A stretch of DNA of 64,000 nucleotides from Methylophaga sp. (lineage in GTDB: Bacteria; Pseudomonadota; Gammaproteobacteria; Nitrosococcales; Methylophagaceae). Under the pieces are notes generated by a model. It worked only from the letters and a program-made list of their open reading frames with translations. It was not told where the DNA came from and made no database searches. The stretch lies in contig JALSLH010000009.1 in the NCBI GenBank assembly GCA_026988435.1, forward strand, positions 1-64,000. The letters are read 5' to 3'. The position numbers were made by a program, and so were the translations under genes. Below are positions 22,775 through 63,132 of this stretch, piece by piece (position 1 is the stretch's first letter; each line of letters starts with the position of its first letter).

Positions 22775-23040
22775 TATACCCAAAATACTTGAGGATGCAG
22801 GTTTCAGCAAGAGAAGAAGCCATTATATTCTAGGCATAAAACGCAGGAATTAGTCGTTCTAATTCTAAGTTTTATAACGACGAAGATAATGGTTTATCCT
22901 CTTGCCCAGCGGGAGCTTAGCACGAATGCCAGCACTGCGTTACAATGCTCGACAAGGACTAGTCATTGCCTTCACATTGCGCCTTGTTCTGACCTTCGTG
23001 CTAAGCTCTGAAATCTGCATCTTCAAGTAATTTGGGTATA
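22775..23040. mobile_element. 266-bp inverted-repeat element, copy 1
   Basis: It starts TATACCCAAAATACTTGA and ends with the inverted equivalent TCAAGTAATTTGGGTATA; the terminal inverted repeats run about 33 bp. Inside are a left hairpin (22807-22905, GCAAGAG...CTCTTGC) and a right hairpin (22913-23008, perfect 14-bp arms GAGCTTAGCACGAA/TTCGTGCTAAGCTC). Copy 2 at 62867-63132 has exactly the same length and about 89% identity by hand count. There is no ORF, so it appears MITE-like and non-autonomous. Its right end encodes the C-terminus of yggS. Confidence 0.88.
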
Positions 23041-23726
23041 TTTGGTTTTCTTTGACCAAATAATGCTGTGCCAATACGTACCATTGTACTGCCTTCTTCG
23101 ATGGCTAAGATCATATCAGCAGACATGCCCATTGATAAAGTATCAATGGTTGGATAACGCTTAGCTAATTGCTCGAAAAGATCGCGCGCTTTTTTAAAGG
23201 CAATACGCTGTTGAGCTTCATCTGCTGTTTTTGTTGGAATAATCATTAATCCACGCAGGACAAGCCGGTCAATTTGGCTGATTTCATGAGCAAAAGAAAA
23301 TAGTTCAACCGGGGTTATTCCGGACTTACTCGATTCATTATCAATATTAACTTGAATGCAAACATTTAAGTCAGGCAGGTTTTCTGGTCGTTGTTTGGCG
23401 AGACGTTGCGCAATTTTTGCGCGATCGAGGCTTTGTACCCATTCGAAATGTGAGGCAATTTCTTTGGTTTTATTGGATTGGATTGGCCCAATGAAATGCC
23501 ACTCAATATCTAAATCAGCCAAAGCAGACATCTTTTTAAGTGCTTCTTGTAAGTAATTCTCGCCGAAGAACCGTTGACCTGCTTGGTTTGCATGGCGAAG
23601 AGCCTCAGCAGGCCATGTTTTGCTAACAGCCAGTAAGCTTACTGAATAGGGTGGTCTTTGAGCCGCATCTTCAGCAAGGTGAATCGTATTTTTAGTAGAG
23701 ATAAGTCTCTTTTTTATATCAGTCAT
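23001..23726 (-). CDS. yggS: PLP homeostasis protein YggS (PLPBP)
   Basis: Single-domain PLP-binding TIM-barrel protein that buffers pyridoxal phosphate. The PLP lysine is in LLAVSKTWPAEAL; FGENYLQEA, WHFIGPIQSNK and LSMGMSADMILAIEEGSTMVRIG are family signatures. YggS proteins usually end soon after the IGTALFG stretch. Here the last 12 residues, IPKLLEDADFRA, and the TAG stop are read from the terminal repeat of the 266-bp element, so the native end was probably replaced by the insertion. Confidence 0.93.
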   Translation of the reverse strand: MTDIKKRLISTKNTIHLAEDAAQRPPYSVSLLAVSKTWPAEALRHANQAGQRFFGENYLQEALKKMSALADLDIEWHFIGPIQSNKTKEIASHFEWVQSLDRAKIAQRLAKQRPENLPDLNVCIQVNIDNESSKSGITPVELFSFAHEISQIDRLVLRGLMIIPTKTADEAQQRIAFKKARDLFEQLAKRYPTIDTLSMGMSADMILAIEEGSTMVRIGTALFGQRKPNIPKLLEDADFRA

Positions 23727-23815
23727 GTTGCAAGCCTGTTGTTAGCGCGCTACCTTTACGTAAGAATAAACGAAAAACAAGAAAAAATAAGAAAAAATAA
23801 AGAGTAGAGGATAGG

Positions 23816-24853
23816 ATGGATATTACTGAATTACTAACGTTTAGTGCAAAAAATAAAGCATCAGATTTACATATTTCGGCAGGTGAACCGCCGATGATTC
23901 GTGTAGACGGCGATATTAGGCGGATCAATATTCCACCACTAGAACATAAAGATATACACAGTATGGTGTATGACATTATGAATGATAAACAGCGCAAAGA
24001 TTATGAAGAATTTTTTGAAACGGATTTCTCATTTGAGATTCCTGGTCTTGCGCGTTTTAGGGTGAATGCCTTTAATCAGAATCGAGGTGCTGGTGCGGTA
24101 TTTAGAACGATTCCATCTGAAGTACTTACTTTAGAAGATTTGGGTGCGCCCGCTATATTTAAGGATATTTCAGATAATCCGCGCGGTATTGTATTGGTAA
24201 CAGGGCCAACGGGGTCAGGTAAATCAACTACTTTAGCGGCAATGATCGATTACAAAAATGACAAAGATAATGAACATATCTTAACCATTGAAGATCCGAT
24301 TGAATTTGTGCACAAAAGCAAAAAATGTTTAGTTAATCAGCGAGAAGTTCATCGAGATACTTTGGGATTTAGTGAAGCTTTGCGGTCGGCTTTACGGCAA
24401 GATCCTGACATCATATTGGTAGGTGAGTTACGTGATTTAGAAACCATTGAATTAGCATTAACTGCGGCAGAAACAGGCCATTTAGTTTTTGGTACTCTGC
24501 ATACGTCTTCAGCGGCAAAAACAATTGATAGGATTATTGACGTATTTCCAGCCGCCGAAAAAGCAATGGTGCGATCAATGCTTTCTGAATCATTGCGTGC
24601 CGTTATTTCACAAACATTAATGAAACGTGTTGGTGGCGGTCGTATTGCCGCACACGAAATTATGATCGGAACACCTGCCATTCGTAACTTGATTCGTGAA
24701 GATAAAGTACCGCAAATGTACAGTGCGATTCAAACGGGTGGAGCAATTGGTATGCAGACATTAGATCAATGTCTACAAGATCTAGTAAGACGGAAACAAG
24801 TCAGTAAAACCGATGCGTTACCGTTAGCAGTTAATAAAGATTTATTCCGATAG
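23816..24853 (+). CDS. pilT: Type IV pilus retraction ATPase PilT
   Basis: Hexameric ATPase for pilus retraction and twitching. Walker A TGPTGSGKST, the Asp box, Walker B ILVGELRDLETIELAL and the His box GHLVFGTLHT are present, as is the PilT-specific AIRNLIREDK near the C-terminus. It is 345 residues. It is divergent from yggS, as in pseudomonads, and followed after 9 bp by pilU. Confidence 0.96.
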   Translation: MDITELLTFSAKNKASDLHISAGEPPMIRVDGDIRRINIPPLEHKDIHSMVYDIMNDKQRKDYEEFFETDFSFEIPGLARFRVNAFNQNRGAGAVFRTIPSEVLTLEDLGAPAIFKDISDNPRGIVLVTGPTGSGKSTTLAAMIDYKNDKDNEHILTIEDPIEFVHKSKKCLVNQREVHRDTLGFSEALRSALRQDPDIILVGELRDLETIELALTAAETGHLVFGTLHTSSAAKTIDRIIDVFPAAEKAMVRSMLSESLRAVISQTLMKRVGGGRIAAHEIMIGTPAIRNLIREDKVPQMYSAIQTGGAIGMQTLDQCLQDLVRRKQVSKTDALPLAVNKDLFR

Positions 24854-24862
24854 GAGCGCACA

Positions 24863-26002
24863 ATGGATATCGTAACGATTCTTAAGGCCGCGGTGAAGCA
24901 TGAAGCTTCAGATATATACATCACAGCAGGTCGACCAGTAAGTTTAAAAGTAAATGGGCGGTTAGCCACCATATCGCAAGACGTGTTATCGGAAGATGAT
25001 GCACGTGAATTAGTCATTGGTACGATGACTGATGACCAAAAAAGAGGTTTTGATCGCGATAAAGAATGTAACTATGCTATTAGTGCAGCAGGTGCCGGAC
25101 GTTTTCGTGTGAGTGCATTATATCAGCGCAATAAAATTGCAATGGTAATGCGACGAATAAAAGACGAAATCCCTAAATTTGCTGAACTTAATCTTCCAGA
25201 AATAATTGAAGAACTGGCGATGACCCAGCGGGGATTGGTTATTTTTGTGGGCGCAACAGGTTCGGGTAAATCTACATCGCTGGCGGCGATGATTGGTTAT
25301 CGCAATCAGAATAGTACAGGCCATATTTTAACGATAGAAGATCCGATTGAATTTGACCATGATCATGGTGGTTGCGTAGTGACACAGCGTGAAGTGGGGA
25401 TTGACACAGATTCATATGAAATAGCATTGAAGAATTCATTACGCCAAGCCCCCGACGTTATTATGATTGGTGAGATCCGCTCTCAAGATACGATGGAATA
25501 TGGAATCGTTTTTGCGGAAACAGGACATTTATGTTTATCAACATTACATGCAAATAACGCTAACCAAGCAATGGATCGTATTATCAACTTCTTCCCGGAA
25601 GAACGACACAAACAGCTATTCTTAGATTTGTCATTAAATCTGAAAGCGGTTGTGGCACAACGATTAATTCCCAAAAAAGACGGCAGTGGTCGCGTAGCAG
25701 CCGTAGAAATACTGATTAATACGCCATTGATTGGCGATCTGATAGAAAAAGGTAATATCGCTGAGATTAAAGATGTGATGAAACGATCTGGTGAGTTAGG
25801 AATGCAAACCTTTGATCAGGCCGTTTATGACTTATATATGGCGGGTGAAATCACCTACGACGAAGCCATAAAAAATTCAGACTCAGAGAACGAAGTTCGC
25901 TTAATGATTAAATTAGGCTCTTCAAAGATTAGTGTCGCTAGTGATACCGGTAGCATGGCACTTGAACCGGAGCAAAATGATTCAAATCATATATTAGGGT
26001 AG
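24863..26002 (+). CDS. pilU: PilT-dependent retraction ATPase PilU
   Basis: Paralogue of PilT that assists forceful retraction. Walker A GATGSGKSTSLAAMIGY, Walker B VIMIGEIRSQDTMEYGI and His box GHLCLSTLHANN are present. The 379-residue length with an extra C-terminal tail is typical of PilU. Probably one transcript with pilT. Confidence 0.94.
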   Translation: MDIVTILKAAVKHEASDIYITAGRPVSLKVNGRLATISQDVLSEDDARELVIGTMTDDQKRGFDRDKECNYAISAAGAGRFRVSALYQRNKIAMVMRRIKDEIPKFAELNLPEIIEELAMTQRGLVIFVGATGSGKSTSLAAMIGYRNQNSTGHILTIEDPIEFDHDHGGCVVTQREVGIDTDSYEIALKNSLRQAPDVIMIGEIRSQDTMEYGIVFAETGHLCLSTLHANNANQAMDRIINFFPEERHKQLFLDLSLNLKAVVAQRLIPKKDGSGRVAAVEILINTPLIGDLIEKGNIAEIKDVMKRSGELGMQTFDQAVYDLYMAGEITYDEAIKNSDSENEVRLMIKLGSSKISVASDTGSMALEPEQNDSNHILG

Positions 26003-26126
26003 AAATATAGAAAACAAGGTAAGTTTTAGGTAGGAATTGTTTAAAAGCAGTGCTATTATATGTTCGTTCAATTATATTTGTCTTTTTTGTGTTGATAAAT
26101 TTTGTAAATATTTTAAGGAATTAGAA

Positions 26127-26981
26127 ATGAAAACATCGATTAAATTAGCAATGGCAGTCTTGTTTGCCAGCTTATTATCAGGCTGTGCAGGCCAAAAACA
26201 ACTTATGTCAGGAAACGATGCCTTATGTGCCGCTGCCGGAGCTTTATTCGGTGGAGCAACTATGGCTGTTGTTGCAGATGGCGGCAGTAGCGAAGCTGCA
26301 CTAGGCGGTGCAGTAGTAGGTGCGGCACTAGGAATGATTCTATGTTCAGATGAAGAAGAAGTGATGGCTGCACCAATGGTAGAAGAAGTAGCCGCTTGTT
26401 CAACTACACCTCCTCCAGGTGCTTTACTTGATGCTCAAGGTTGTGCATTTGATACAGATGGTGATGGCGTTGTCGATGGCGTCGACCTTTGCCGAGGCAC
26501 ACCTTCTGGTGTAGCTGTTGACCGTGTAGGTTGCCCACTAGATACTGACCGTGATGGTGTAGCTGACTACCAAGACTTATGTCCTAAAACACCATTAGGT
26601 ACAGTTGTTGATACGGATGGTTGTCCTTTAGAGGGTCAGAAATTACTTTCTTTAACTGGTGTTAACTTTGCAACAAATAGTGCAGTATTAACAACAAGTG
26701 CTAAATCAGTGTTAGAGGAAGCTGTTGAGCTTCTTAAAGCAACAGATAATGTTATCGAAGTGCGTGTTGAAGGCCACACAGATAGTCGTGGTGCAGCAGC
26801 CTATAACCAAGCATTGTCACAACGCCGTGCAGAATCAGTAGTGGCTTACTTGGTTTCTCGTGGAGTGAACGGAAGTAGCTTAGTACCAGTTGGTATGGGT
26901 GAAGGTACTCCTGTTGCGAGCAATGACACAGAAGAAGGTCGTGCGGCTAACCGTCGTGTTGACTTCTATGTAAATCAATAA
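26127..26981 (+). CDS. OmpA-family lipoprotein with thrombospondin type 3 repeats
   Basis: A lipoprotein signal (LLSGCAG) is followed by a glycine-zipper segment (ALGGAVVGAALG). Two or three calcium-binding TSP3 repeats follow (DTDGDGVVDGVDLC, DTDRDGVADYQDLCP), and then a C-terminal OmpA peptidoglycan-binding domain (EVRVEGHTDSRGAAAYNQAL, AANRRVDFYV). I start at 26127 because AAGGAA lies before that ATG and the preceding ORF stretch is not signal-like. It probably tethers the outer membrane to the cell wall. Confidence 0.88.
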   Translation: MKTSIKLAMAVLFASLLSGCAGQKQLMSGNDALCAAAGALFGGATMAVVADGGSSEAALGGAVVGAALGMILCSDEEEVMAAPMVEEVAACSTTPPPGALLDAQGCAFDTDGDGVVDGVDLCRGTPSGVAVDRVGCPLDTDRDGVADYQDLCPKTPLGTVVDTDGCPLEGQKLLSLTGVNFATNSAVLTTSAKSVLEEAVELLKATDNVIEVRVEGHTDSRGAAAYNQALSQRRAESVVAYLVSRGVNGSSLVPVGMGEGTPVASNDTEEGRAANRRVDFYVNQ

Positions 26982-27003
26982 GCTTCACAACTAGTTTGAT
27001 TCT

Positions 27004-27031
27004 AAAAGGCCCTGAAAAGGGCCTTTTTTTT
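27004..27031 (+). terminator. Intrinsic terminator after the OmpA-like gene
   Basis: AAAAGGCCC, loop TGAAAA and GGGCCTTTT followed by a run of Ts lie 22 bp after the stop codon. This is a textbook rho-independent terminator. Confidence 0.92.
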
Positions 27032-27069
27032 GCCTGTAATTAATAACAAACTAAAACGCGGAGAATACT

Positions 27070-27549
27070 ATGGAAAATGAATATAAATGTGCCACCCATC
27101 CACATGAATTATTAATGATGAATTTATCGTTCTTCCACCTCTTATTACCCCTTGCGGCATTAGCTACGGGCTATATAGCACCTATACTCTCTTTAGCATT
27201 AATAGCTTCTATTGGTACCCTGCTGTGGATAGCAAAAAAAGCAAAAATACACTGCTGCACCGCTTCAAAAGATACGCCGCTGGTAAAAGCACATTGGAAA
27301 AAGGCATGGGATCGTAGTAAGCTTTTGTTTATTGGTTATGCCATTTCAGTGAGCATACTTGGTTTAGGTTGGTTCTTCGCCACGTCACAATCCGATCCTA
27401 ATATGGAAGATATATTATTAGTAGTCTTTAGCTGGATTGCTATCATCCCTTTAGTTTTTATTGTTTTTGCTTTGTTTGTTTTTTCAACGGTCTCATCTGC
27501 CCGAGCTAAGCGTGGTGAGTTTCCTAAAGTGAAGGGAAACATAACTTAA
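27070..27549 (+). CDS. Small multi-pass membrane protein, unknown function
   Basis: A 159-residue protein with four predicted hydrophobic segments (about 15-35, 38-55, 88-105, 118-142), a CATHPHELLMMN N-terminus, a CC pair near residue 64 and a basic C-terminal tail. I do not recognise the family. CGCGGAG just upstream of the ATG is a plausible ribosome site. It stands alone between the OmpA-like terminator and tRNA-Arg. Confidence 0.7.
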   Translation: MENEYKCATHPHELLMMNLSFFHLLLPLAALATGYIAPILSLALIASIGTLLWIAKKAKIHCCTASKDTPLVKAHWKKAWDRSKLLFIGYAISVSILGLGWFFATSQSDPNMEDILLVVFSWIAIIPLVFIVFALFVFSTVSSARAKRGEFPKVKGNIT

Positions 27550-27733
27550 CTCTATTAAAATTAAGTTACAGGCTGTCTAGAGAGGTAAAATAATCTAGGA
27601 TGCTAGGAAGAGCTTAAAGCAGATTTAGCTGGTATAAACAAAGTCGGTTAATTGAATGTACTCATAACCTAATGACACAAGAAGGCAGGTGCTATTCTTA
27701 TGGATTTTCAGATGAAGGGGATAATGAGTGTAA

Positions 27734-27810
27734 TGGTGCGCCTGACAGGAATCGAACCTGTGACCCCCAGTTTCGGAAACTGGTACTCTATCCAACTGAG
27801 CTACAGGCGC
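27734..27810 (-). tRNA. tRNA-Arg (anticodon CCG)
   Basis: Read on the minus strand, a 77-nt cloverleaf starts GCGCCTG and ends CAGGCGC-A-CCA, with the CCA encoded. The D arm has GCTC...GAGT, the anticodon stem-loop is CCAGT-TTCCGAA-ACTGG giving anticodon CCG, and the T arm contains GGTTCGATTCC. It decodes CGG. Confidence 0.96.
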
Positions 27811-27818
27811 ACATTTAA

Positions 27819-30317
27819 CTATTTAGGGCTAACTTTCTCTAGCTTCCAAATTTCATTATTGTATTCTTCCATCGTGCGATCAGTGGAGAATTTACCGCTG
27901 GTAGCTGTGTTCATGATGCTCATGGCTGTCCAACGCTCTTGATCTTGGTAGGCAAGGCCAGCTAGGTGTTGAGCATCAATATAGCTACGGAAGTCAGCAA
28001 TGGTCATCCATGGATCATTATGACTAGTGAATGCATTAATGATGTTGTCAAAACGATTAGGTTCAAATTGATTAAAATGTCCGCCTTCGAGTAAATCTAC
28101 TACACGTTTGAGGTCGCGATCTTTTGCGATAATGGCGCGTGGGTTATAGCCAACACGTTCTTTTTCGACTTCATCTTCAGTTAAACCGAATAGGAAGAAG
28201 TTTTCATCGCCGGCTTCTTCACGGATCTCGATATTAGCACCATCCAGCGTACCGATAGTAACGGCACCATTCATCATGAACTTCATGTTCCCTGTACCTG
28301 AGGCTTCTTTACCTGCGGTAGAAACTTGCTCAGACAGGTCGGCAGCAGGACAAATAACCTCCATTGCTGATACTTGATAGTTAGGTAAGAAGACAACTTT
28401 TAGTCTATCGCCCACATCAGGGTCATTATTCACTACATTAGCCACATTATTAATCAATTTGATAATGTCTTTTGCCATGGCATAACCAGGAGCGGCTTTA
28501 CCACCAAAAAGAACACAACGCTTAACGATACCTTTAGTATCACCGCGTTTGATACGATCATAAAGATGAATAACGTGTAATACGTTAAGCAGCTGGCGTT
28601 TGTATTCATGAATACGTTTTACTTGAATATCAAACATCGCATCGGTATCAAATGTAACGCCACAACTTTGTTTTACTAAGTCTGCAAGACGTGTTTTATT
28701 TGCTTTTTTTACATCATTCCATTTTCTTTGGAATGCCGTGCTATTTGCAAACGGAGTGAGTTTCTTAAGCTGATCAAGATCGGTAACCCATTGTTCACCA
28801 ATAGTTTCGCTTACTAATTCTGTTAGAGCAGGGTTGCACCATGCCATCCAACGGCGCTGTGTTACGCCATTGGTTTTATTGTTGAATTTGTTTGGCCATA
28901 GTTGATAAAAGTTATTAAATAAACCTTTTTGTAACAATTCTGAATGCAGAGCGGCAACGCCGTTCACAGAAAAACTACCGACAATGGCAAGGTGAGCCAT
29001 ACGAACTTGTTGTTGTCCACCTTCTTCAATGATTGACATGCTAGCAAGGCGTGCTTTATCGCCAGGCCATTTACGTGCCACTTCGCTTAGGAAGCGTGCA
29101 TTGATTTCATAAATAATTTCTAGAACACGTGGGAGCAGTCTTCCAAACATATGTACAGGCCAGCGTTCAAGTGCTTCTGGTAATAAGGTATGATTTGTAT
29201 AGGCCATTGTTTTTGTCACAATAGTCCATGCTTTATCCCAGCCCATATTATGCTCATCCATTAATAGGCGCATTAATTCAGCTACGCCAACAGTTGGGTG
29301 CGTATCGTTGAGTTGGAAACAATTTTTCTCAGCAAAGTCGTCAAAATTTTCACCGTTATTAGTGATCCAATGATTGAGAATATCTTGCAAACTTGCAGAA
29401 GCTAAGAAATACTGTTGACGAAGGCGAAGCTCTTTACCATTTTCACTGGCATCATTTGGGTAAAGTACCATGCTGATGTTTTCAGCTGCATTTTTACTCG
29501 CTACTGCTTCGGTATATGAACCGGCATTAAAATCTTCTAGATTAAATTCATCGGTGGCTTCTGATTTCCACAAACGTAATTTATTGACGGTGCCATTTTG
29601 ATAACCTGGAATAGGCAAGTCATACGGCACAGCCAAAATATCATTGCTATCAACCCAATGTACAGACATATTGCCGGCCACATTTTTACGAAACTCAGTG
29701 TGGCCACCAAACTTGATACGCTGAGTGTATTCAGGGCGCTCTAGTTCCCACGGGTTACCATCTCGTAACCAGTGATCAGGGCTTTCCATTTGATTACCAT
29801 TTTCAATGCTCTGTTGAAACATGCCATATTCATAGCGAATGCCATAACCTGTAACAGGTAATTGTAATGTCGCACAACTATCAATAAAACAAGCAGCTAG
29901 ACGGCCTAAGCCACCGTTACCTAAACCGGCATCATGTTCAAGTTCAGTGAGTTCTTCAAAGTCTAAACCGAGCTCAACCATTGCTTTTGTAACCGTTTCA
30001 CTTAAGCCAAGATTAAGTGCCGCATTACCCATTGCGCGACCCATCAAGAACTCCATAGACATGTAATAAGCTTGTTTACACTTACTTTCGGAATATGCCA
30101 TTTTGGTTTTCTTCATGCGTTCAAATAAACGATCACGAAGTGTCAAAGCTAGTGACGTGTAGAGGTAGTGTCCAGATGCGCACCCTTTATCTTGTGCAAG
30201 ATGGTTACCGTAGTAACTTTTAAAGTCTTGTTCTAGCGATTTTTCATCCATACCCAATTCAGGGGTGTTATTAAGTTCAGGGTTAGGATTAACAGTACAG
30301 GCATAACGAGGGCTCAT
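27819..30317 (-). CDS. glgP: Glycogen/alpha-glucan phosphorylase
   Basis: PLP-dependent enzyme releasing glucose-1-phosphate from glycogen. The PLP lysine motif EASGTGNMKFMMNGA, the early GNGGLGRLAACF and the NDTHPTVGVAELMR segment are all intact. It is 832 residues, full length. No other glycogen genes (glgA, glgB, glgC) lie beside it, so it is a solitary locus next to the tRNA gene. Confidence 0.96.
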   Translation of the reverse strand: MSPRYACTVNPNPELNNTPELGMDEKSLEQDFKSYYGNHLAQDKGCASGHYLYTSLALTLRDRLFERMKKTKMAYSESKCKQAYYMSMEFLMGRAMGNAALNLGLSETVTKAMVELGLDFEELTELEHDAGLGNGGLGRLAACFIDSCATLQLPVTGYGIRYEYGMFQQSIENGNQMESPDHWLRDGNPWELERPEYTQRIKFGGHTEFRKNVAGNMSVHWVDSNDILAVPYDLPIPGYQNGTVNKLRLWKSEATDEFNLEDFNAGSYTEAVASKNAAENISMVLYPNDASENGKELRLRQQYFLASASLQDILNHWITNNGENFDDFAEKNCFQLNDTHPTVGVAELMRLLMDEHNMGWDKAWTIVTKTMAYTNHTLLPEALERWPVHMFGRLLPRVLEIIYEINARFLSEVARKWPGDKARLASMSIIEEGGQQQVRMAHLAIVGSFSVNGVAALHSELLQKGLFNNFYQLWPNKFNNKTNGVTQRRWMAWCNPALTELVSETIGEQWVTDLDQLKKLTPFANSTAFQRKWNDVKKANKTRLADLVKQSCGVTFDTDAMFDIQVKRIHEYKRQLLNVLHVIHLYDRIKRGDTKGIVKRCVLFGGKAAPGYAMAKDIIKLINNVANVVNNDPDVGDRLKVVFLPNYQVSAMEVICPAADLSEQVSTAGKEASGTGNMKFMMNGAVTIGTLDGANIEIREEAGDENFFLFGLTEDEVEKERVGYNPRAIIAKDRDLKRVVDLLEGGHFNQFEPNRFDNIINAFTSHNDPWMTIADFRSYIDAQHLAGLAYQDQERWTAMSIMNTATSGKFSTDRTMEEYNNEIWKLEKVSPK

Positions 30318-30427
30318 GCAAATGGGTCCTTAAAAATATTGAAGCTTTTGCTTGATAATTATTTTTGCCTTGTCATGACAAAAAATACTTTTCGAGCAAA
30401 TGCCTCTTGTTAGTAGGTAGTGGTGCT

Positions 30428-30964
30428 TTAATCAGGGTAGATGGCAATAAAACCATCACGATTTGGCATCGTCACTTGGGGCAGATTCTTTTCAGAAAGA
30501 TCTAATTCGGCATCTATTATACCATCTTGACTCAAGATATAGGCGCTCAATGCATAAACTTCATCTGCAGACAATGAGAATGGGCGGTCTATAGGCATCG
30601 CGCGTCGAATGTAATCAAATAATGTCGTAGCATAAGGCCAATAACTATTGACTGTTTTCTCAGGATATTCACTGGCAAGTGAGCCGACCTCACCCATCAG
30701 CGGATCGGCAGTGCCACCGATGCCTTCTGGCCCATGACAAGCGGCACATTGTAATGCAAATATTTTGGCCCCTTGTGCGGCATTACCACTGCCTTCAGGT
30801 AAATTTTTGCCATCAGGTGAAATTGTTAAATTCCATTCTGATTGTGAACTGATCTCAGTGGCAGGTTTACCTAAAGGTTGATAATTTGTCTCGGCATAGC
30901 AAGCTGATATGCTGAGTAAAAATGCGGTGCTAATAATAAGGTTAGAAGTCATAGCCGTAGACAT
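30428..30964 (-). CDS. Monohaem cytochrome c, partner of the SoxC-like dehydrogenase
   Basis: An exported 178-residue protein (N-terminal hydrophobic signal ending near ACYAE) with one haem site, CAACHGPEG. A probable axial Met lies in RRAMPIDRPFSLS, followed by the class I cytochrome helix ADEVYALSAYILSQDG. It overlaps the end of the SoxC-like gene by 23 bp, so it almost certainly accepts its electrons. It is shorter than the dihaem SoxD and is closer in plan to SorB. Confidence 0.82.
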   Translation of the reverse strand: MSTAMTSNLIISTAFLLSISACYAETNYQPLGKPATEISSQSEWNLTISPDGKNLPEGSGNAAQGAKIFALQCAACHGPEGIGGTADPLMGEVGSLASEYPEKTVNSYWPYATTLFDYIRRAMPIDRPFSLSADEVYALSAYILSQDGIIDAELDLSEKNLPQVTMPNRDGFIAIYPD

Positions 30965-54365: not shown

Positions 54366-54410
54366 CAGGGGATAACGTGTTAGCGCTTGTAAAGGAGCAT
54401 GTATGTTTCA

Positions 54411-54507: not shown

Positions 54508-54509
54508 CT

Positions 54510-54538
54510 TGAATTTGATGTGAATCTTATCAAATTCA
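54510..54538. repeat. Inverted repeat TGAATTTGAT / ATCAAATTCA
   Basis: Ten-bp perfect arms spaced by 9 bp lie between the PilZ gene stop and the TPP riboswitch. It could be the PilZ transcript end or an operator at the receptor promoter; there is no T-run. Confidence 0.45.
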
Positions 54539-54566
54539 GGTGAAATTATACGGTAAAGAGGTGTTT

Positions 54567-54920: not shown

Positions 54921-55011
54921 TGTAAAATTCTCTAAAATTCTTTTGATCGTCTATTCACACTACGCAACTATAAAAATATCAACAAGGAACTAATCGACTA
55001 TTTTTGAGAAA

Positions 55012-55329
55012 CTATTTTATGCTTGCTCGGCACTGGGGGCAGACGCGAAGTTGGCTGTTTAATCGCTTGGTCGGTACTTTATTTCCGGTGTTGTCATAAC
55101 AGCTTGGGCAGAAAAAACCTTTTTGATCAGAAAAAATATAACAACCAGATTTTATTTCCGGTTTGGAATGAGCAGAATTCGGTGGTGTTTCTTTGGTGAG
55201 TTGCTCTGCAAAAACGGTGATATTGTCTAATTCTTTTGAGATAGAATTTAATAAATCTGTATGTTTATCATCGTTTGAAAGTTTTTCTAAAAGCAGTTTT
55301 ACTTGCTCAACTGAAGCAAAAATAGTCAT
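55012..55329 (-). CDS. Zinc-ribbon-containing small protein
   Basis: A 105-residue protein. The N-terminal half is helical (VEQVKLLLEKLSNDDKHTDLL). The C-terminal half has two CxxC knuckles (CPSCYDNTG and CPQCRA) typical of a zinc ribbon. I do not recognise a named family. It lies 10 bp downstream of cysB on the same strand. Confidence 0.65.
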   Translation of the reverse strand: MTIFASVEQVKLLLEKLSNDDKHTDLLNSISKELDNITVFAEQLTKETPPNSAHSKPEIKSGCYIFSDQKGFFCPSCYDNTGNKVPTKRLNSQLRVCPQCRASIK

Positions 55330-55338
55330 GGGCTCTTC

Positions 55339-56256
55339 CTAAGAGATGGCATGTTCAACCACTTTTTGTGTTAATTGTGGTGCTAAGAATTCAATAAAGG
55401 CATAGCTATAGCCACGAAGATAGCTGCCGCGTTTTATGCCTAAATGTGTGGTGCTGGCTTTGAATAAATGATTGGCATTGAGGGCTTTTAGCGGTGCATC
55501 CTTGGTTTCATCAAATGCCATGCTGGCAATAATACCAATGCCTAGTCCAACTTCAACATAGGTTTTTATTACATCAGCATCGGTTGCCGTGAACACAACA
55601 TTAGGATGTAAACCACGTTTGATAAAGGCTTGATCTTGTTGCTCGCGACCTGTGAACCCCATTACATAGGTCAATATTGGGTATTGAGAAATTGACTCAA
55701 GCGTGAGCTTTTTCTCTAATAATAAGGGGTGGTCAGGAGTGACAACAATTGATCTATTCCAATCATAGCAAGGTAGAATGGCTAAAGAGTCAAATTTAGA
55801 TAAACCTTCGGTTGCAATGGCAATATCGACGCGGCCAGTGGCGACCATTTCAGCAATTTCAGTCGGTGTGCCTTGCACCATATTTAAATGAACATTGGGA
55901 TAATGCTCAGAGAACTTTTTGATCGCTTTGGGAAGAGCGTAGCGTGCTTGTGTATGTGTTGTGGCAATAGAGAGCGTTCCTAGTTGATCATTTTTACTAT
56001 CCGCGGCAAGCTGGCGAATATTCTCAACATCAAGCAAAACACGATCGGCCATCTCAACAACACTCTTACCAACAGCCGTTAAACCTGTAAGGCGCTTGCC
56101 ATGGCGTTCAAATATTTGTAATCCCAATTCATCTTCGAGCTGTTGTACTTGATTGCTTACCCCAGGTTGTGAGGCATGCAACGCGTTGGCGGCGGCAGAA
56201 ACACTCAAACCACGACGAGAAATTTCACGTACATATTTTAATTGTTGTAACTTCAT
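55339..56256 (-). CDS. cysB: LysR-type regulator CysB
   Basis: CysB/Cbl-type transcription factor controlling sulfur assimilation. The N-terminal winged HTH is MKLQQLKYVREISRRGLSVS and ALHASQPGVSNQVQQLEDEL. The effector domain carries the CysB-type stretches TTHTQARYALP, VVTPDHPLL and LGIGIIASMAFD. It is 305 residues (the family is 310-325). It is divergent from the TSUP-tusA-cysH operon it probably activates. Confidence 0.92.
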   Translation of the reverse strand: MKLQQLKYVREISRRGLSVSAAANALHASQPGVSNQVQQLEDELGLQIFERHGKRLTGLTAVGKSVVEMADRVLLDVENIRQLAADSKNDQLGTLSIATTHTQARYALPKAIKKFSEHYPNVHLNMVQGTPTEIAEMVATGRVDIAIATEGLSKFDSLAILPCYDWNRSIVVTPDHPLLLEKKLTLESISQYPILTYVMGFTGREQQDQAFIKRGLHPNVVFTATDADVIKTYVEVGLGIGIIASMAFDETKDAPLKALNANHLFKASTTHLGIKRGSYLRGYSYAFIEFLAPQLTQKVVEHAIS

Positions 56257-56270
56257 ATCCTGCCCTCGAT

Positions 56271-56284
56271 ATCGTATATACGAT
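56271..56284. promoter_or_regulatory. Perfect palindrome in the cysB promoter region
   Basis: ATCGTATATACGAT lies 15 bp before the cysB start, in the divergent region shared with the TSUP-cysH operon. It has the size of a LysR-type half-site pair and could serve autoregulation. Role inferred. Confidence 0.4.
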
Positions 56285-56378
56285 TTAATTATAACAATAG
56301 TTAATAATATTCATTGATAGAATATAATTAACTGATAAAATTGTCACCTTTTTAGAATATTAAAAGATAATAATTAAC

Positions 56379-57179
56379 GTGGAATGGGGATATACATTAG
56401 CAGGGTTATTTGTCGGCATCATGGTCGGAATGACCGGTGTGGGCGGCGGATCGCTGATGACACCTATCTTGATTTTTGGTTTCTCAGTACAGCCCGCAAT
56501 CGCCGTAGGAACGGATCTATTATTCGCAGCAATAACAAAGTCGGGCGGTATCTGGGCGTATTGGCGTCATGGTGTAATTAACTGGACGGTTGTAAAACGA
56601 CTTGCAACAGGTAGTGTTCCTGCATCATTGCTCACGTTATATTTTTTAAATAAAACAGGGGTGAGTGAGGGGCAACATAGTGAACTCATCACCTCCGCAT
56701 TAGGTGTGGCATTAATTTTAACGTCTAGCGCCTTATTATTAAAAGGCACGATTACTAATATTTTACATGCGCGAGCGGGTCACCCAGTGGTCAGTGCTTT
56801 ATATCGTGTGCGTCAAGATGAAAGCCATAAAGCGGTAGCTACGGTTGCAACTGGCGCCTTTTTAGGTGTAATGGTCACCATGTCATCAGTAGGGGCGGGG
56901 GCCTTGGGTGCGGTGACTTTGTTATTTCTATACCCTAAGATGAAGGGCGTGGAGATTGTCGCCACTGATATTGCACATGCTGTGCCGTTAACAGCGATTG
57001 CAGGCTTGGGGCATTCAGCCGTGGGCACGGTAGATTGGTCTTTATTATCATTTTTAGTGATAGGGTCATTGCCTGGCATTTATATTGGGAGCCATTTGGG
57101 TGTGAAAATTCCTGATACAGTGATGAGGCCATTATTAGCCGTATTATTATTAGGTGTGGGTGTGAAATGTCTGATCTGA
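56379..57179 (+). CDS. TSUP (TauE/SafE) family permease of the cys operon
   Basis: Eight or so hydrophobic segments in 266 residues. The TSUP repeat signatures are LFVGIMVGMTGVGGGSLMTP and FLGVMVTMSSVGAGALGAV. The start is GTG. It overlaps the TusA-like gene by 13 bp, which is coupled in turn to cysH. The context suggests transport of sulfate or another sulfur anion for assimilation. Confidence 0.85.
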   Translation: MEWGYTLAGLFVGIMVGMTGVGGGSLMTPILIFGFSVQPAIAVGTDLLFAAITKSGGIWAYWRHGVINWTVVKRLATGSVPASLLTLYFLNKTGVSEGQHSELITSALGVALILTSSALLLKGTITNILHARAGHPVVSALYRVRQDESHKAVATVATGAFLGVMVTMSSVGAGALGAVTLLFLYPKMKGVEIVATDIAHAVPLTAIAGLGHSAVGTVDWSLLSFLVIGSLPGIYIGSHLGVKIPDTVMRPLLAVLLLGVGVKCLI

Positions 57180-57400
57180 TTGAAACGCTGAACTTAACTT
57201 TATACGGTTGCCCATTGCATTATATTAAAGCAAGGGAAGCCCTTAGCGACATGGCGATTGGCCAAGAAATTGAACTTGAAGTTAATAATGGTGATGCTGT
57301 TGATGAAGTATTAACTAGCCTACGTCACGATGGCCAACTGTGTGAAGTTACGTCAGAACAAACACTGACATCAACGATTAAAGTAGTGAAACAATCATGA
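57167..57400 (+). CDS. TusA-like sulfur carrier with altered CPxP motif
   Basis: A 77-residue IF3-C-like fold: LNLTLYGCPLHYIKAREAL, IGQEIELEVNNGDAVDEV, and a final strand. TusA proteins have CPxP; here it is CPLH, with the catalytic Cys kept and the second Pro replaced by His. It overlaps both TSUP and cysH genes, so it is firmly part of the assimilation operon. It may accept or donate sulfur there; that is unproven. Confidence 0.75.
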   Translation: MSDLIETLNLTLYGCPLHYIKAREALSDMAIGQEIELEVNNGDAVDEVLTSLRHDGQLCEVTSEQTLTSTIKVVKQS

Positions 57401-58101
57401 CTGAAATTAATGAAAAACTAGCGGTTAAGATAGAAGCAGTAAAAAAGGTATTGAACGATATTGTTGCGGGATATGATCCTGCAACCTTGGCATCGAGCTA
57501 TGGTGCTGAAGATATGGTGCTGATGGATTTGATTTGTAAACACGCACCTAAAATTGAAATCTTTACGCTTGATACGGGGCGCTTGCCAAAAGAAACCTAT
57601 GATGTGATGCAGCAAGCTAAATCACATTATAATGTGGATGTTCAAGTGTATTTCCCTGATGCTACGGATGTGGAAGAGTATGTGACAAATAATGGGCCTA
57701 ATGCTTTTTATGAGAGCGTTGACTTACGCAAACAGTGTTGTGGTATCCGTAAAGTGAAGCCCTTGAAACGTGCTTTAGATGGCAAAAAAGCGTGGCTGAC
57801 TGGTATGCGACGTTCACAAGCAGTGACGCGCAGTGAATTGCCTGTTTCTGAATATGATGAAACATTTGGTTTACAGAAGTTTAGCCCACTGACCGATTGG
57901 TCAAATGGTGATGTTTGGGCCTATATAAAAGCCTTCGATGTGCCTTATAATAAATTACATGATCGCGGCGTTGCCAGTATTGGCTGTGCTCCGTGTACAC
58001 GAGCAATAACTGCCGGTGAAGATATTCGTGCAGGTCGCTGGTGGTGGGAAAATCCAGAATCAAAAGAGTGTGGGCTTCATGTGAAAGCCTCAAAGATTTA
58101 A
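57397..58101 (+). CDS. cysH: Assimilatory adenylyl-sulfate reductase (CysH, Fe-S type)
   Basis: PP-loop-family reductase making sulfite. LASSYGAEDMVLMDL is the N-terminal nucleotide loop, and the C-terminal ECGLH contains the catalytic Cys. Two cysteine pairs, CCGIRKV and CAPCTRA, mark the [4Fe-4S] type that reduces APS rather than PAPS. It is 234 residues. The start overlaps the TusA-like gene by 4 nt. Confidence 0.93.
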   Translation: MTEINEKLAVKIEAVKKVLNDIVAGYDPATLASSYGAEDMVLMDLICKHAPKIEIFTLDTGRLPKETYDVMQQAKSHYNVDVQVYFPDATDVEEYVTNNGPNAFYESVDLRKQCCGIRKVKPLKRALDGKKAWLTGMRRSQAVTRSELPVSEYDETFGLQKFSPLTDWSNGDVWAYIKAFDVPYNKLHDRGVASIGCAPCTRAITAGEDIRAGRWWWENPESKECGLHVKASKI

Positions 58102-58103
58102 AA

Positions 58104-58202
58104 TGTCATTCCCGCCTATTTTAGGCGGGAATCCATAAAGCTTAACAAGATTCCCGATAAGCTTGTACTCAGCTCGACTGGGTAAGAATTCGGGAATGAC
58201 GG
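58104..58202. repeat. REP-like double hairpin, copy C
   Basis: The first hairpin is ATTCCCGCC/GGCGGGAAT. The second has ATTCCCGA/TCGGGAAT arms enclosing a longer insert, and TGTCA...TGACG closes the unit. It is the same class as the repeats at 4758 and 46000 but with a distinct, longer second arm. It lies between cysH and cysD. Confidence 0.8.
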
Positions 58203-58223
58203 AATTTATTTTAGAGTAGAAAT

Positions 58224-59123
58224 ATGACTAAAAAACTAACCCATCTGCAACAATTAGAAGCAGAAAGTATTCATATCATGCGTGAAGTAGCCGCGGAATT
58301 TGATAATCCAGTGATGCTCTATTCCGTAGGCAAAGATTCAGCTGTAATGTTGCATCTGGCGATGAAAGCATTTGCACCCGGCAAGCCGCCTTTTCCACTA
58401 TTGCATGTAGATACTACGTGGAAGTTTAAAGAGATGATCGCCTTTCGTGATCAACGAGTAAAAGACCTAGGTTTAGAATTGTTGGTGCATAGCAATCAGG
58501 AGGGCATTGATGAAGGCATTAACCCTTTCGATCATGCCCGTTATACCGATATTATGAAAACAGATGGGTTGAAACAAGCCTTAGATAAATATGGTTTTGA
58601 TGCCGCTTTTGGTGGCGCACGGCGTGATGAAGAAAAATCTCGAGCCAAAGAACGTGTTTATTCGTTTCGAGATAAAAACCATCGCTGGGATCCTAAACAA
58701 CAACGCCCAGAATTATGGAACACCTATAACAGTAAGGTAAATCAAGGCGAAAGCATCCGTGTATTCCCATTATCAAATTGGACTGAGCTTGATATTTGGC
58801 AATATATTCACCTAGAAGGTATTCCCATTGTGCCTTTATATTACGCGGCAGAACGCCCTGTTGTTGAACGCAATGGTTTGAAGATTATGGTTGATGATGA
58901 CCGTATGCGTTTGAATGAAGGCGAAGTGCCAAAAATGGAAAAAGTACGGTTTAGAACATTGGGTTGTTATCCACTAACAGGTGCAGTGGATTCGAATGCC
59001 GAAACGTTGCCAGAAATCATTCAAGAAATGTTATTGACTACCACATCTGAACGCCAAGGTCGCGCGATTGATCATGATGAGTCAGGTTCGATGGAGAAGA
59101 AAAAACAAGAGGGCTACTTCTAA
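58224..59123 (+). CDS. cysD: Sulfate adenylyltransferase subunit 2
   Basis: Catalytic PP-loop subunit of ATP sulfurylase (sulfate + ATP to APS). The PP-loop is in [35 protein letters not shown] and [15 protein letters not shown] are conserved. It is 299 residues. The stop shares one base with the cysN start. Confidence 0.96.
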
Positions 59124-60565
59124 TGACTACAGATAATTATCAAGTAGATAATCTAATAGCCACCGATATTGATGCCTATTTAAAGCAGCATGAAAACAAA
59201 GAAATATTACGTTTCTTAACCTGCGGTAATGTCGATGATGGAAAAAGCACGCTAATTGGTCGTCTGCTTTATGATTCAAAAATGATCTATGAAGATCAAT
59301 TAGAATCAATCACCAAAGACAGTGTGAAATCAGGCACAACAGGCGAGACTGTAGATTTAGCGTTGCTGGTGGATGGTTTGCAAGCCGAGCGAGAACAAGG
59401 CATCACTATTGATGTTGCCTACCGTTATTTCTCAACGACGAAACGCAAATTTATCATTGCTGATACGCCGGGGCATGAACAATACACCCGTAATATGGCA
59501 ACAGGTGCATCAAACTGCCAGCTTGCCGTTATTTTGATTGATGCACGTTATGGCGTGCAAACGCAAACACGTCGGCATAGCTTTATCGCTAATTTATTGG
59601 GCATTAAACATATTATTGTAGCCATTAATAAAATGGATATTAAAGACTATAGTGAACAGGTGTATAACGATATTCGCAAAGAATACACCGAATTTGCCCG
59701 CGAACTAGAAATGGACGATGTGCACTTTGTGCCATTATCCGCTTTAGTGGGTGATAATGTGGTTAACAAAAGTGAAAACATGCCTTGGTACCAAGGTGAA
59801 ACATTAATGTACTTATTAGAAAATATCGAGCTGTCACAAGATATCAATGTCGATGCCGTACGCTTCCCGGTGCAATATGTAAATCGACCTAACCTAGATT
59901 TTCGTGGCTATTGTGGCACACTTGCATCAGGAGTTTTAAAACCGGGTGACGAGATCACAGTATTGCCATCAGGCGTTGAAAGCAAAGTAAAATCCCTAGT
60001 CACCTATGATGGTGATTTAGAGGAAGCCATTCCCAGTGAAGCGATCACCGTGACATTAGAAGATGAAATAGATGTCAGCCGTGGCGATATGATTGTGCAT
60101 CGTAATAATCAGCCACATGTAGGCAGTCATTTCAAAGCCACCGTAGTATGGATGACCGAAAAACCATTGATCAGTGGCAAACAATATAACTTTAAAGTAG
60201 GTGTGAGTGAAAGCACCGGTATTTTGACCAATCTGGATAGCCAAATTGACGTCAACACACTAGCCGAAAATGAAGCCAGTGAATTGAAGTTAAATGAAAT
60301 TGGTCAATGCGAATTTTCATTGGGCAAACCAGTAGTGTTTGATGCCTATAAACGCAACCGAAGCACCGGCTCATTTATTATCATCGATCGCCTAACCAAC
60401 GTCACCATCGGCGCAGGCATGATCACCGAAGCGGTATCCGGCTCACAAGCGCAACAAGTGATTAGCCTAGAACATATTTCTGAGTTTGAAATAGAATTAA
60501 ATGCCTTGATACGAAAACACTTCCCACATTGGGATGCTAAGGATTTGGGTGGTTTGTTGAAATAG
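59123..60565 (+). CDS. cysN: Sulfate adenylyltransferase subunit 1 (GTPase)
   Basis: Regulatory GTPase that drives ATP sulfurylase. G1 is [17 protein letters not shown]3 is [17 protein letters not shown] and G4 is NKMD. An EF-Tu-like C-terminal half follows. At 480 residues it ends without a fused CysC (APS kinase), which fits an APS-type CysH. Confidence 0.95.
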
Positions 60566-60622
60566 ATTGTAACCTTTCGTTTTGAAAATGGTGATGCCAA
60601 AATTATAAATTATAAATTATGA
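60566..60622 (+). pseudogene. HigB toxin remnant (C-terminal codons only)
   Basis: Immediately after the cysN stop, in frame without a start codon, the sequence reads IVTFRFENGDAKIINYKL then TGA. This resembles the C-terminal strand pair of RelE/HigB toxins (..CFRF.dG.a.dVeIvDYH). A HigA-type antitoxin gene follows, as expected for a decayed higBA locus. The match is short, so confidence is moderate. Confidence 0.55.
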
Positions 60623-60643
60623 AGATTACCACTAGGAGATATT

Positions 60644-60931
60644 ATGAGAATGCATAATTCCCCTCATCCCGGTGAAGTCATAAAAGGTTTATGGCTAGAG
60701 CCGATGAATTTAAGTATTACTGATACGTCTAAAGCGCTAGGCATAAGCAGAAAAACGCTGTCAAAAATCATCAATGGCAAAGGCAGTATCACCCCAGAAA
60801 TGGCAGTGAGATTATCTATTGCACTAGGTGCAAGCCCCGAAAGCTGGATGGGGCACCAAGTTGCCTACGATCTTTGGCAGGTTGAACAACATAAAAGTGA
60901 GTTGGATGTACAATCATTAATGGTGGCTTAA
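60644..60931 (+). CDS. higA: HigA-family XRE antitoxin/regulator
   Basis: A 95-residue helix-turn-helix protein with the HigA opening HNSPHPGEVIKGLWLEPMNLS and HTH ISRKTLSKIINGKGSITPEMAVRL. GGAG stands before the ATG. Its toxin partner is reduced to a fragment upstream. It is followed after 3 bp by the NYN-domain gene, with which it is surely co-transcribed. Confidence 0.85.
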   Translation: MRMHNSPHPGEVIKGLWLEPMNLSITDTSKALGISRKTLSKIINGKGSITPEMAVRLSIALGASPESWMGHQVAYDLWQVEQHKSELDVQSLMVA

Positions 60932-60934
60932 GGT

Positions 60935-61672
60935 ATGAATAACGGAAAGAGAATTGCTCTTCTTATTGATTGTGATAACGTAAGCCCTAAATCAATTGAT
61001 GGTGTTTTAAATGAGCTTGCAAACTATGGAATAGTTAATATCCGTAAGGCTTATGGTGATTGGAAAAGCCCTCGGCTTCAAGGGTGGGAAGAGAGGCTAC
61101 ATCCTTTTGCTATTAATCCAGTTCAACAGTTTGCTTATACAACAGGTAAAAATGCAACAGATTCTGCCATGATTATTGATGCAATGGATTTGTTATACAC
61201 ACATGACTTAGATGGCTTTGCTTTAATGACAAGCGACAGTGATTTTACGCCATTGGTTATGCGGCTTTTATCGAGTGGGCTTAAAGTCTATGGCTTTGGT
61301 GAGCAAAAAACACCTTCACCATTTATTAATGCTTGTTCGCAATTTATTTTTATTGAAAAACTAATTGAGGCTGAACCTACATCAGAAGATAAAGAGGCTA
61401 CTAATTCTAGTAAAAATAAATTTTCTAAGAGTGAGTTGAGGATGGATACAGCCTTGGTTAGGCTGTTAAGAACGGCAGTTGAGCAAACGGTTGAAGATGA
61501 TGGCTGGTCTCCCCTAGGAGGCGTTGGTACATATATTTCCAATAACTCATCATTTTCACCTATAAATTATGGCTATAAGAAACTGAGTGAAATTGTTAAA
61601 GCAAGTGAATTATTTAAAGTAACGATGAGAAACACCACATCAATGTACATAAAGGACTCTAGGAATAAGTAA
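60935..61672 (+). CDS. NYN (PIN-like) domain protein with C-terminal OST-HTH/LOTUS domain
   Basis: The N-terminal NYN nuclease-like domain (about residues 1-150) has acidic residues in LLIDCDNVSP, TDSAMIIDAMDLLY and MTSDSDFTPLV, the LabA/MARF1 pattern. The C-terminal 75 residues (LRTAVEQTVEDDGWSPLG to SMYIKDS) look like a LOTUS RNA-binding domain. It probably acts on RNA. It starts 3 bp after the HigA-like gene. Confidence 0.85.
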   Translation: MNNGKRIALLIDCDNVSPKSIDGVLNELANYGIVNIRKAYGDWKSPRLQGWEERLHPFAINPVQQFAYTTGKNATDSAMIIDAMDLLYTHDLDGFALMTSDSDFTPLVMRLLSSGLKVYGFGEQKTPSPFINACSQFIFIEKLIEAEPTSEDKEATNSSKNKFSKSELRMDTALVRLLRTAVEQTVEDDGWSPLGGVGTYISNNSSFSPINYGYKKLSEIVKASELFKVTMRNTTSMYIKDSRNK

Positions 61673-61677
61673 TTCCG

Positions 61678-61839
61678 ATGAAACTTAATGTAGTCATTCT
61701 CTATTCAGCAGGCCACCTTGGCAGTGCAATGATTATGAATAAGCTTCTCAGAGTGCCAGAAATTAATATTGTCGGTGTGGTGAAAGCGCAGCCTTTGAAG
61801 TTATCTCAAAAGGTTGGTCACGAATTAAACGATATTTAA
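61678..61839 (+). pseudogene. Truncated formyltransferase-like gene fragment
   Basis: A 53-codon ORF absent from the supplied track, MKLNVVILYSAGHLGSAM then IMNKLLRVPEINIVGVV. It resembles the N-terminal Rossmann strand and helix of formyl transferase domain proteins. A stop at 61837 ends it. Another frame continues for about 20 codons (GWRLLLWQ) before a stop, suggesting frameshift plus deletion. The family guess is tentative. Confidence 0.45.
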
Positions 61840-61891
61840 TTAAGCTCGGCTGGCGGTTACTGTTGTGGCAAGGTTGTGCTCAGATCTGAGG

Positions 61892-62395
61892 TTAAATTAT
61901 TATGTTTTGCCACTGATCTAATTTTTGTTTAAATGTTATCGAGGCATGAGCAGGACTGGTAGAGGGTAATCGTATTTGACTAAATTGTTTAAACCGATCA
62001 TCTAAGGTCGGCATGACATGTTGTTTAAACACTTGTTCAGCCTTGCCACCGTTAAAGAATATTTGATCAATCTTTGAGTGCTGTTGTAAGAAGGTATTAA
62101 AGTCATTGGCAACCATGCTGTTAGTTTCAATATTACTATCTAAACTGCCTTGTCGTTGGCAGGCTTTGAGTGCATCCCATACGGCAACATTATTTTTCAT
62201 TAACTGTTGGCAACGTAGCTGATAACTACTACCTTTTTCTATATTAAATAAAGCTGACATAATCGGCCAAAATGCATTGCGTGGGTGCGCATAATATTGC
62301 TGTTGTTGTAACGATTTTACGCTGGGCATTGAGCCGAGAATTAGAATTTCTGCATTTTTATTGGCAATAGGCGGAAAGCCAATTTCAACAGCCAT
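61892..62395 (-). CDS. DNA-deoxyinosine glycosylase (UDG family 6, HDG)
   Basis: Uracil-DNA-glycosylase-fold enzyme of the hypoxanthine-DNA glycosylase type: LILGSMPSVKSLQ (motif 1), YYAHPRNAFWPIM, and the C-terminal LPSTSPAHA motif. It is 167 residues. It would remove deaminated adenine from DNA. It lies 1 bp downstream of the DUF3465 gene. Confidence 0.85.
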   Translation of the reverse strand: MAVEIGFPPIANKNAEILILGSMPSVKSLQQQQYYAHPRNAFWPIMSALFNIEKGSSYQLRCQQLMKNNVAVWDALKACQRQGSLDSNIETNSMVANDFNTFLQQHSKIDQIFFNGGKAEQVFKQHVMPTLDDRFKQFSQIRLPSTSPAHASITFKQKLDQWQNIII

Positions 62396-62396
62396 T

Positions 62397-62840
62397 TTAT
62401 TGATAACGATTACCGTTATGTTCTATCCAGCCATCAATATGTCGTTTGGCAGGATCGTGGTGTGTCCAATGAATAACCCCACCTTTTTCATTCCACTCAT
62501 ATTCGCCATAAACAGTGATAATATCGCCTTTTTGAAGCTCATCGATTCTAGGGGCAAGGTCAATATTATGGGCGATTAGAATTGTTTCGCCACCTGATAG
62601 TTTAATCAAAAAACGCTGATGCCTACTGCCCTTTAAATCATCTTTTAACACTCTGAAAACTTGAGCGGTTAAATTAATTTGAACGTCGCTTTGGCGTTGC
62701 TCAATAAGTTGTTCAATATTAACGGGTTGTTCAGCGCCGGAATAAGCTTGTTCGGGCGAAAATTGACTGGCGTAATAACCTAAAACAATAAAGCCAATAA
62801 TAAGTCCGATACGCTGTTTCTGGCGAGATGTTAATGACAT
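62397..62840 (-). CDS. DUF3465 family protein
   Basis: An N-terminal transmembrane or signal segment (about residues 11-27) is followed by an OB-like beta-rich domain: VFRVLKDDLKGSRHQRFLI, GDIITVYGEYEWN, and the DUF3465 hallmark GGVIHWTHHDPAKRHIDGWI. It is 147 residues. Function unknown, probably periplasmic nucleic-acid or ligand binding by fold. The 266-bp element begins 26 bp upstream of its start. Confidence 0.82.
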   Translation of the reverse strand: MSLTSRQKQRIGLIIGFIVLGYYASQFSPEQAYSGAEQPVNIEQLIEQRQSDVQINLTAQVFRVLKDDLKGSRHQRFLIKLSGGETILIAHNIDLAPRIDELQKGDIITVYGEYEWNEKGGVIHWTHHDPAKRHIDGWIEHNGNRYQ

Positions 62841-62866
62841 AGGAATAGTATTAAAAAATAAAATTA

Positions 62867-63132
62867 TATACCCAAAATACTTGAAGATGCTGGTTTCAGC
62901 AAGAGAAGAAGCTGCACTATTCTAGGCATAAACCCGCAGAATTAGTCGTTCTAATTTAAGGTTTTATAACGACGAAGAGTGCGGCTTATCCTCTTGCCCT
63001 ACGGGAGCTTAGCACGAATGCCAGCGCCGCGTTGCAATGCTTGACAAGGACTAGTCATTGCCTTCACATTGCGCCTTGCTCTGACCTTCGTGCTAAGCTC
63101 TGAAACCTGCATCTTCAAGTAATTTGGGTATA
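62867..63132. mobile_element. 266-bp inverted-repeat element, copy 2
   Basis: Same ends (TATACCCAAAATACTTGA ... GGGTATA), same length and same two-hairpin plan as copy 1. The left hairpin has GCTGCACT paired with AGTGCGGC where copy 1 has GCCATTAT with ATAATGGT, so pairing is kept by changes on both sides. It fills most of the gap between the DUF3465 and cysI genes. No ORF and no clear target-site duplication beyond TA-rich flanks. Confidence 0.88.

Follow-up and report, generated by a model that had tools for sequence, protein, structure and literature searches.

Coupled changes in the hairpin arms of an IS630-type miniature inverted-repeat element family in Methylophaga

RUP of Streptococcus pneumoniae, a miniature inverted-repeat transposable element (MITE) of IS630-Spn1, is short and non-coding, targets TA, lies mostly between genes and has inverted ends that match those of an insertion sequence (IS) of the IS630 family (PMC2229807, PMC3049150). 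The ERIC or IRU repeats of enterobacteria have a terminal TA that is a duplication and a long palindromic fold, and are found inside operons (PMC2759123, PMC2229807). These features recur in an element present twice in a 64,000-nucleotide stretch of Methylophaga sp. DNA (assembly GCA_026988435.1, contig JALSLH010000009.1, positions 1 to 64,000), here referred to as the window (Table 1). However, RUP measures 107 bp and has one simple fold, whereas the Methylophaga family covers 165-365 bp among the copies studied, has a two-hairpin three-way junction with optional loop insertions, and occurs with at least two end dialects. ERIC is 127 bp long, has another sequence and has been described without a known mobilizing IS; the Methylophaga element has no match in E. 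coli. REPINs have a single-stranded-DNA (Y1-type) transposase and conserved 16-mers. The enzyme associated with the Methylophaga element, unlike that of the REPIN/RAYT system, is a DDE transposase of the IS630 family, with TA duplication. Compensatory paired changes were noted earlier in REPIN hairpins (PMC3116915). Copying of one arm from the other is also described for quasipalindrome template-switch mutation (PMC7202029), as is multibase compensatory change (PMC8794818), but those studies concern reporter genes and RNA genes, whereas the palindromes considered here form the arms of a mobile element with many copies.

With a probability of roughly 0.6, we regard the Methylophaga element as a non-autonomous IS630-type MITE whose hairpin arms co-evolve mainly by arm-to-arm copying. 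The kind of element, an IS630-type MITE with TA duplication, is already known; the MITE family itself, its three-way fold and the quantified co-evolution of its arms appear to be undescribed in the open-access literature (ISfinder lay outside the comparison), which would make this an apparently new IS630-type MITE from a little-studied genus. A functional RNA fold is ordinarily proven by covariation between the arms of its stems. In the present mobile DNA element, strong covariation extends over every helix although nothing points to a single functional RNA strand, and arm copying as the apparent cause calls for caution in structure searches that use covariation only. The family also offers, in nature and in many copies, a view of mutated arms next to half-corrected and corrected ones.

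An earlier examination of the window without database searches (the sequence-only reading) had described two 266-bp copies with terminal inverted repeats and perfect 14-bp arms, differing at about 28 bases. Both copies are indeed exactly 266 bp long and differ at exactly 28 positions; since the TA at the outer ends belongs to the target duplication, however, the element proper measures 262 bp (TACCC...GGGTA). The terminal inverted repeats are about 31-33 bp long in both, with 3 mismatches over 33 bp in copy 1 and 2 in copy 2, and the right hairpin has the perfect 14-bp arm GAGCTTAGCACGAA / TTCGTGCTAAGCTC in each. In the left stem, the 5' block CATTA and the 3' block TAAT of copy 1 correspond to TGCAC and GTGC in copy 2. 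Base by base, this confirms the reported four successive Watson-Crick replacements (A-T to G-C, T-A to C-G, T-A to A-T and A-T to C-G) and one wobble, the fifth pair of the block going from C-G to T-G. Folding compared with shuffled sequence gave z = -12.5 for copy 1 and -12.2 for copy 2, and the fold is a three-way junction composed of the terminal stem, a left hairpin (element positions 33-131) and a right hairpin (138-235). The two are not sisters: copy 1 is a member of a young cluster of 14, and copy 2, older and on its own, lies closer to the base of the type-B lineage.

The source genome (2,565,519 bases in 95 contigs) contained about 40 sizeable copies of the family. Sixteen are type-A full-length copies, 14 of them at least 97.7% identical to copy 1; about 20 are type-B copies with the same core as type A and other ends (TATACCCGTGACCATTCAATCTGCAG), and fragments were found besides. 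End-specific pattern searches returned 39 and 81 matches, with none for the reversed controls. The element is short, non-coding and repeated, with 31-bp terminal repeats. Matches were present in 12 of 59 related genomes, the source genome included, all compared as metagenome-assembled genomes (MAGs) or other assemblies with no reads behind the sequences. Long diverged copies were recovered from five relatives (G018, G008, G028, G031 and G033), and in named genomes a core pattern search matched only the MAGs Methylophaga sp. NORP53 and NORP33. The element had no match in the plasmids, phages and E. coli genomes searched. Some copies (L032-L037, L097, L098 and L015) carry about 48-50 bp of additional, optional sequence in a hairpin loop (left, right or both), resulting in forms of 314-316 and 363-364 bp; the two insertions have a short inverted similarity in common (GCTCCTGC/GCAGGAGC and CATCCATG/CATGGATG).

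Paired changes were analyzed in a strand-neutral, scripted register of 104 opposed positions covering all three helices. Both sides had changed in 48 of the 104 pairs when 29 representative copies were compared, with all helices involved. The covariation score was 0.272; shuffling the partners lowered it to 0.104 and sliding them to 0.04-0.06, and these controls exclude a chance origin. In the terminal stem (helix 1), 92.8% of cells were paired and 19 of 31 pairs had changed on both sides. We then placed changes on a midpoint-rooted tree of 52 partly recombining copies, using parsimony ancestral states. Double changes from one Watson-Crick pair to another fell on single branches 57 times, compared with 3.9 expected from random changes at paired sites; pairs were restored 97 times (26 expected) and broken 141 times (324 expected). 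Double transversions, for which there is no wobble path, make up 25 of the 57 double changes, and 28 of the 57 lie in the internal hairpins. Copies with non-standard ends covary as well (L039, L139, L143, L144, L149 and L152). The preservation of the fold by paired changes, first noticed between the two window copies, therefore holds in dozens more. Both outcomes that the sequence-only reading had named as speaking against it, further copies lacking covariation and an inversion of the stem-loop, were examined and neither was found. Its paired changes stand, but its remark that they are unexpected for a dead MITE was overstated in view of the REPIN precedent (PMC3116915) and of quasipalindrome template switching (PMC7202029, PMC8794818).

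Young copies were also counted separately; in these, selection has had little time to act on each single insertion. In three young clusters, 25 restorations were observed where 7.8 were expected (0 of 2,000 simulations reached 25), and 53 breaks where 103 were expected. The single clear multi-base case is copy L013, whose three differences from its cluster of 14 near-identical copies all restore pairs. Two of these changes turn ACGAATGCC into ACGAAGGTC (ATGCC to AGGTC), which complements exactly the arm facing it in the same copy, GACCTTCGT. The rewritten arm was found in no other fetched copy, and the change is confined to this arm, the other being kept. In type B, positions 154-156/225-227 are mismatched as AAC/GCT in 11 copies and resolved as AGC/GCT in 6, AAC/GTT in 1 and CGC/GCG in 1; half-changed forms (CGC/GCT, AAC/GCG and CGC/ACT) also occur. 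One A.C mismatch of type B has become G-C in 9 copies and A-T in 1. In E. coli, template switching is an established process at quasipalindromes and makes imperfect palindromes more perfect (PMC7202029); multibase compensatory change by this route has been suggested as a way in which RNA stems arise and are maintained (PMC8794818). On these grounds we take arm-to-arm copying to be the main cause; no direct precedent for template switching in MITEs was found in the open-access literature. Copying within arms had been among the options offered by the sequence-only reading, and it is the one favored by the young-cluster restorations, the tree and the type-B resolutions.

As for the molecular events, the ends, junctions and relatives suggest that an IS630-family transposase would bind the TATACCC...TGCAG ends, insert the element at TA and duplicate the TA. 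The element folds into the terminal-repeat stem and the left and right hairpins of a three-way junction, and during replication or repair one arm would be copied from the other. We infer that intramolecular template switching at the imperfect palindrome is the route. Whatever alters one arm, be it a mutation or a block brought in by recombination, would then be erased or copied across, so that the sequence drifts and the fold stays.

Full copies start with TATACCC and end with GGGTATA, with few exceptions, and the terminal inverted repeats have the form TATACCC…TGCAG. Where elements abut each other (L009, L010, L013, L024, L131 and others), the junction reads GGGTATATACCC, which indicates duplication of TA around TACCC...GGGTA, as duplication of TATA would yield GGGTATACCC. 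A BLAST search also identified the empty site of copy 1 in one relative (G018); it is consistent with TA duplication, the divergence being too high for an exact match. Judged from these ends and junctions, the element is a MITE, a non-autonomous DNA transposon with TA target-site duplication. The transposase with the same TATACCC termini that the sequence-only reading had proposed to look for was found in relatives and is of the IS630 family. A family search showed that PF13358 proteins in the genus carry the same kind of ends. In G018 there is a complete 1,111-bp insertion sequence with ends of the TATACCC type (TATACCCGTGATCATTGAAACTGCAG and TATACCCGTAATCCTTCAATTTGCAG), whose protein scored 221.3 bits with NF033545 (cut-off 100) and 124.6 bits with PF13358, identifying it as a DDE transposase of the IS630 family. 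The ends of this IS, TATACCCGTRATC...TGCAG, are close to those of type-B MITEs, and the right end of an IS630 element in G008 (TATACCTAAAATACTTGAAGATGCAG) is identical to the type-A MITE end at 25 of 26 bases. Further end variants lie by IS630 transposase genes in G000, G022, G008 and G001. The shared ends point to mobilization by an IS630 enzyme, and the MITE was probably moved by an IS630-family transposase found in sister species. Around solitary ends in the source genome, the search for an autonomous element found only other MITEs or partial ends. This genome combines a young type-A cluster with an IS630 transposase copy interrupted by stop codons, so whatever drove its latest round of movement is either absent or inactive.

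Several observations weigh against this account. All IS630 transposase copies of the source genome hold stop codons or are fragments; even the best one (C65:143-1154) has stop codons inside, so either movement has ended or an intact copy is absent from the assembly. In the 1.1-kb IS, where they lie far apart, the terminal repeats have 5 mismatches in 26 positions, and in the MITEs usually 0-2, which speaks for copying; but this argument from distance has a single independent complete IS630 behind it (n = 1). The L013 rewrite is seen in a single copy, in an assembly that has no reads behind it. The deficit of broken pairs could also be produced by purging or structural selection, and structural selection may contribute besides copying. 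Lastly, single changes away from Watson-Crick pairs gave 22 G.T to 6 A.C in the left hairpin and 6 to 21 in the right; with each pair counted once, the bias was 15:6 and 3:15 (Fisher p = 0.001, for a hairpin split made after the data were seen and with related copies). Both transition types feed this asymmetry, which is weaker on the outer arms only (p = 0.02-0.04). An asymmetry of this kind is not expected from strand-symmetric arm copying; hairpins with a role on whichever strand places them 5'-proximal would agree with it.

Selection on folded single strands is a possible, if unlikely, explanation of the covariation. The strands would be RNA (protecting mRNA 3' ends or acting as an RNase site or terminator) or single-stranded DNA in transposition, with compensatory changes selected one after the other. 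Such selection would account for breaks at half the expected frequency and for the wobble bias of each hairpin on the strand where it is 5'-proximal, and ERIC and NEMIS repeats function in mRNA processing (PMC2229807). However, under RNA selection G.T departures should outnumber A.C ones on the strand that is transcribed, and G.T was in no overall excess (39:42, p = 0.82); nor was the orientation of copies to co-directional neighbor genes, tallied by eye, significantly biased (23:14, p = 0.19). The minus strand folds slightly better in 20 of 28 copies (p = 0.04). Nearly half of the double changes, the 25 double transversions, could not have passed through a wobble pair, and the opposite strand preferences of the two hairpins are unlike any single transcript. 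An Rfam search with the two window loci gave no match at the gathering score, and no terminator-like site was found in copy 1. The structured RNA suggested by the sequence-only reading is thus unsupported as one kept on a single strand, and selection on a single RNA strand probably makes no large contribution. The mirror-image wobble itself is seen across the whole family: the left hairpin tolerates G.T on the plus strand, the right hairpin on the minus strand. It raises the idea, which we consider quite unlikely, that each end bears its own working single-stranded hairpin, kept on the inward-reading strand (left plus, right minus), making the element alike from either side. If true, such hairpins might serve, e.g., as a symmetric RNA buffer for transcription that comes in from neighboring genes, or in transposition as a DNA hairpin specific to one strand.

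Chimerism combined with selection by the transposase is a highly doubtful source of the pattern. Paired end changes would then fit one transposase, and whole blocks would be swapped between subfamilies by recombination. Types A and B, which have a common core and different ends on both sides, agree with this, as do the several end dialects among the IS630 copies of the genus and copy L140, which has only the right arm of another type. It does not account for the internal hairpins, which have no need to bind a transposase and still hold 28 of the 57 double changes, or for the arm of L013, which is not derivable from any other sampled copy. An inversion of the stem-loop or a strand exchange that mimics paired substitutions is scarcely conceivable, even though an inversion between near-perfect arms would look subtle: L013 changed in one arm and not in the other, and loop orientation is constant in all aligned copies. 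For the window pair an inversion is refuted, since CATTAT...ATAATG inverted is itself and the loops keep their orientation.

Table 1. Features of the two element copies and the adjoining gene in the window
Feature	Position	Strand	Remarks
MITE copy 1, type A ends, TA duplication included	22775..23040	+	ends and length as in 13 other copies, 98-99% identity
MITE copy 1, element proper	22777-23038		
Putative left TA target-site duplication, copy 1	22775..22776	.	from GGGTATATACCC junctions and the G018 empty site
Putative right TA target-site duplication, copy 1	23039..23040	.	from GGGTATATACCC junctions and the G018 empty site
Left terminal inverted repeat, copy 1, TATACCCAAAATACTTGAGGATGCAG...	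22775..22805	+	
Right terminal inverted repeat, copy 1	23010..23040	-	
Left hairpin, copy 1	22807..22905	+	outer stem and inner tip hairpin
CATTA, covarying block, 5' side, copy 1	22821..22825	+	
TAAT, covarying block, 3' side, copy 1	22887..22890	+	
Right hairpin, copy 1	22912..23009	+	
MITE copy 2, type A ends, TA duplication included	62867..63132	+	older lineage
Left terminal inverted repeat, copy 2	62867..62897	+	
Right terminal inverted repeat, copy 2	63102..63132	-	
Left hairpin, copy 2	62899..62997	+	
TGCAC, covarying block, 5' side, copy 2	62913..62917	+	
GTGC, covarying block, 3' side, copy 2	62979..62982	+	
Right hairpin, copy 2	63004..63101	+	
YggS-type pyridoxal phosphate (PLP)-binding protein (PF01168)	23001..23726	-	final 11 residues and stop from MITE copy 1

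Copy 1 is inserted in a TA just 5' of the stop codon of the yggS-type gene and extends the protein by 11 residues. With the flanks joined, the C-terminus would read ...KPNI*; with the MITE (window 23001-23040) it reads ...KPNIPKLLEDADFRA*. The L140 copy in G008 (contig C61:76139-76404, close to the contig end) also adjoins yggS, with an insertion point slightly off that of copy 1; its left stem is broken because the 5' arm is type-A and the 3' arm type-B-like.

Smaller and unrelated elements with similar ends were also observed. Tiny elements of 46-55 bp in the source genome (C5:71126-71171, C17:14001-14055, C32:57315-57367, C40:5993-6038 and C42:11579-11624) consist of a head-to-head pair of terminal repeats with almost no interior, and similar ones occur in G018 and G008; they are either minimal mobile units or products of palindrome deletion. 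Other MITE families have TATACCC... ends and unrelated interiors, both in the source genome (C40:40857-41019, C32:4041-4202, C73:112-420 and C17:56026-56175) and in G027 (L155-L157), and some of these interiors hold CGTCATTCCCG-type palindromes.

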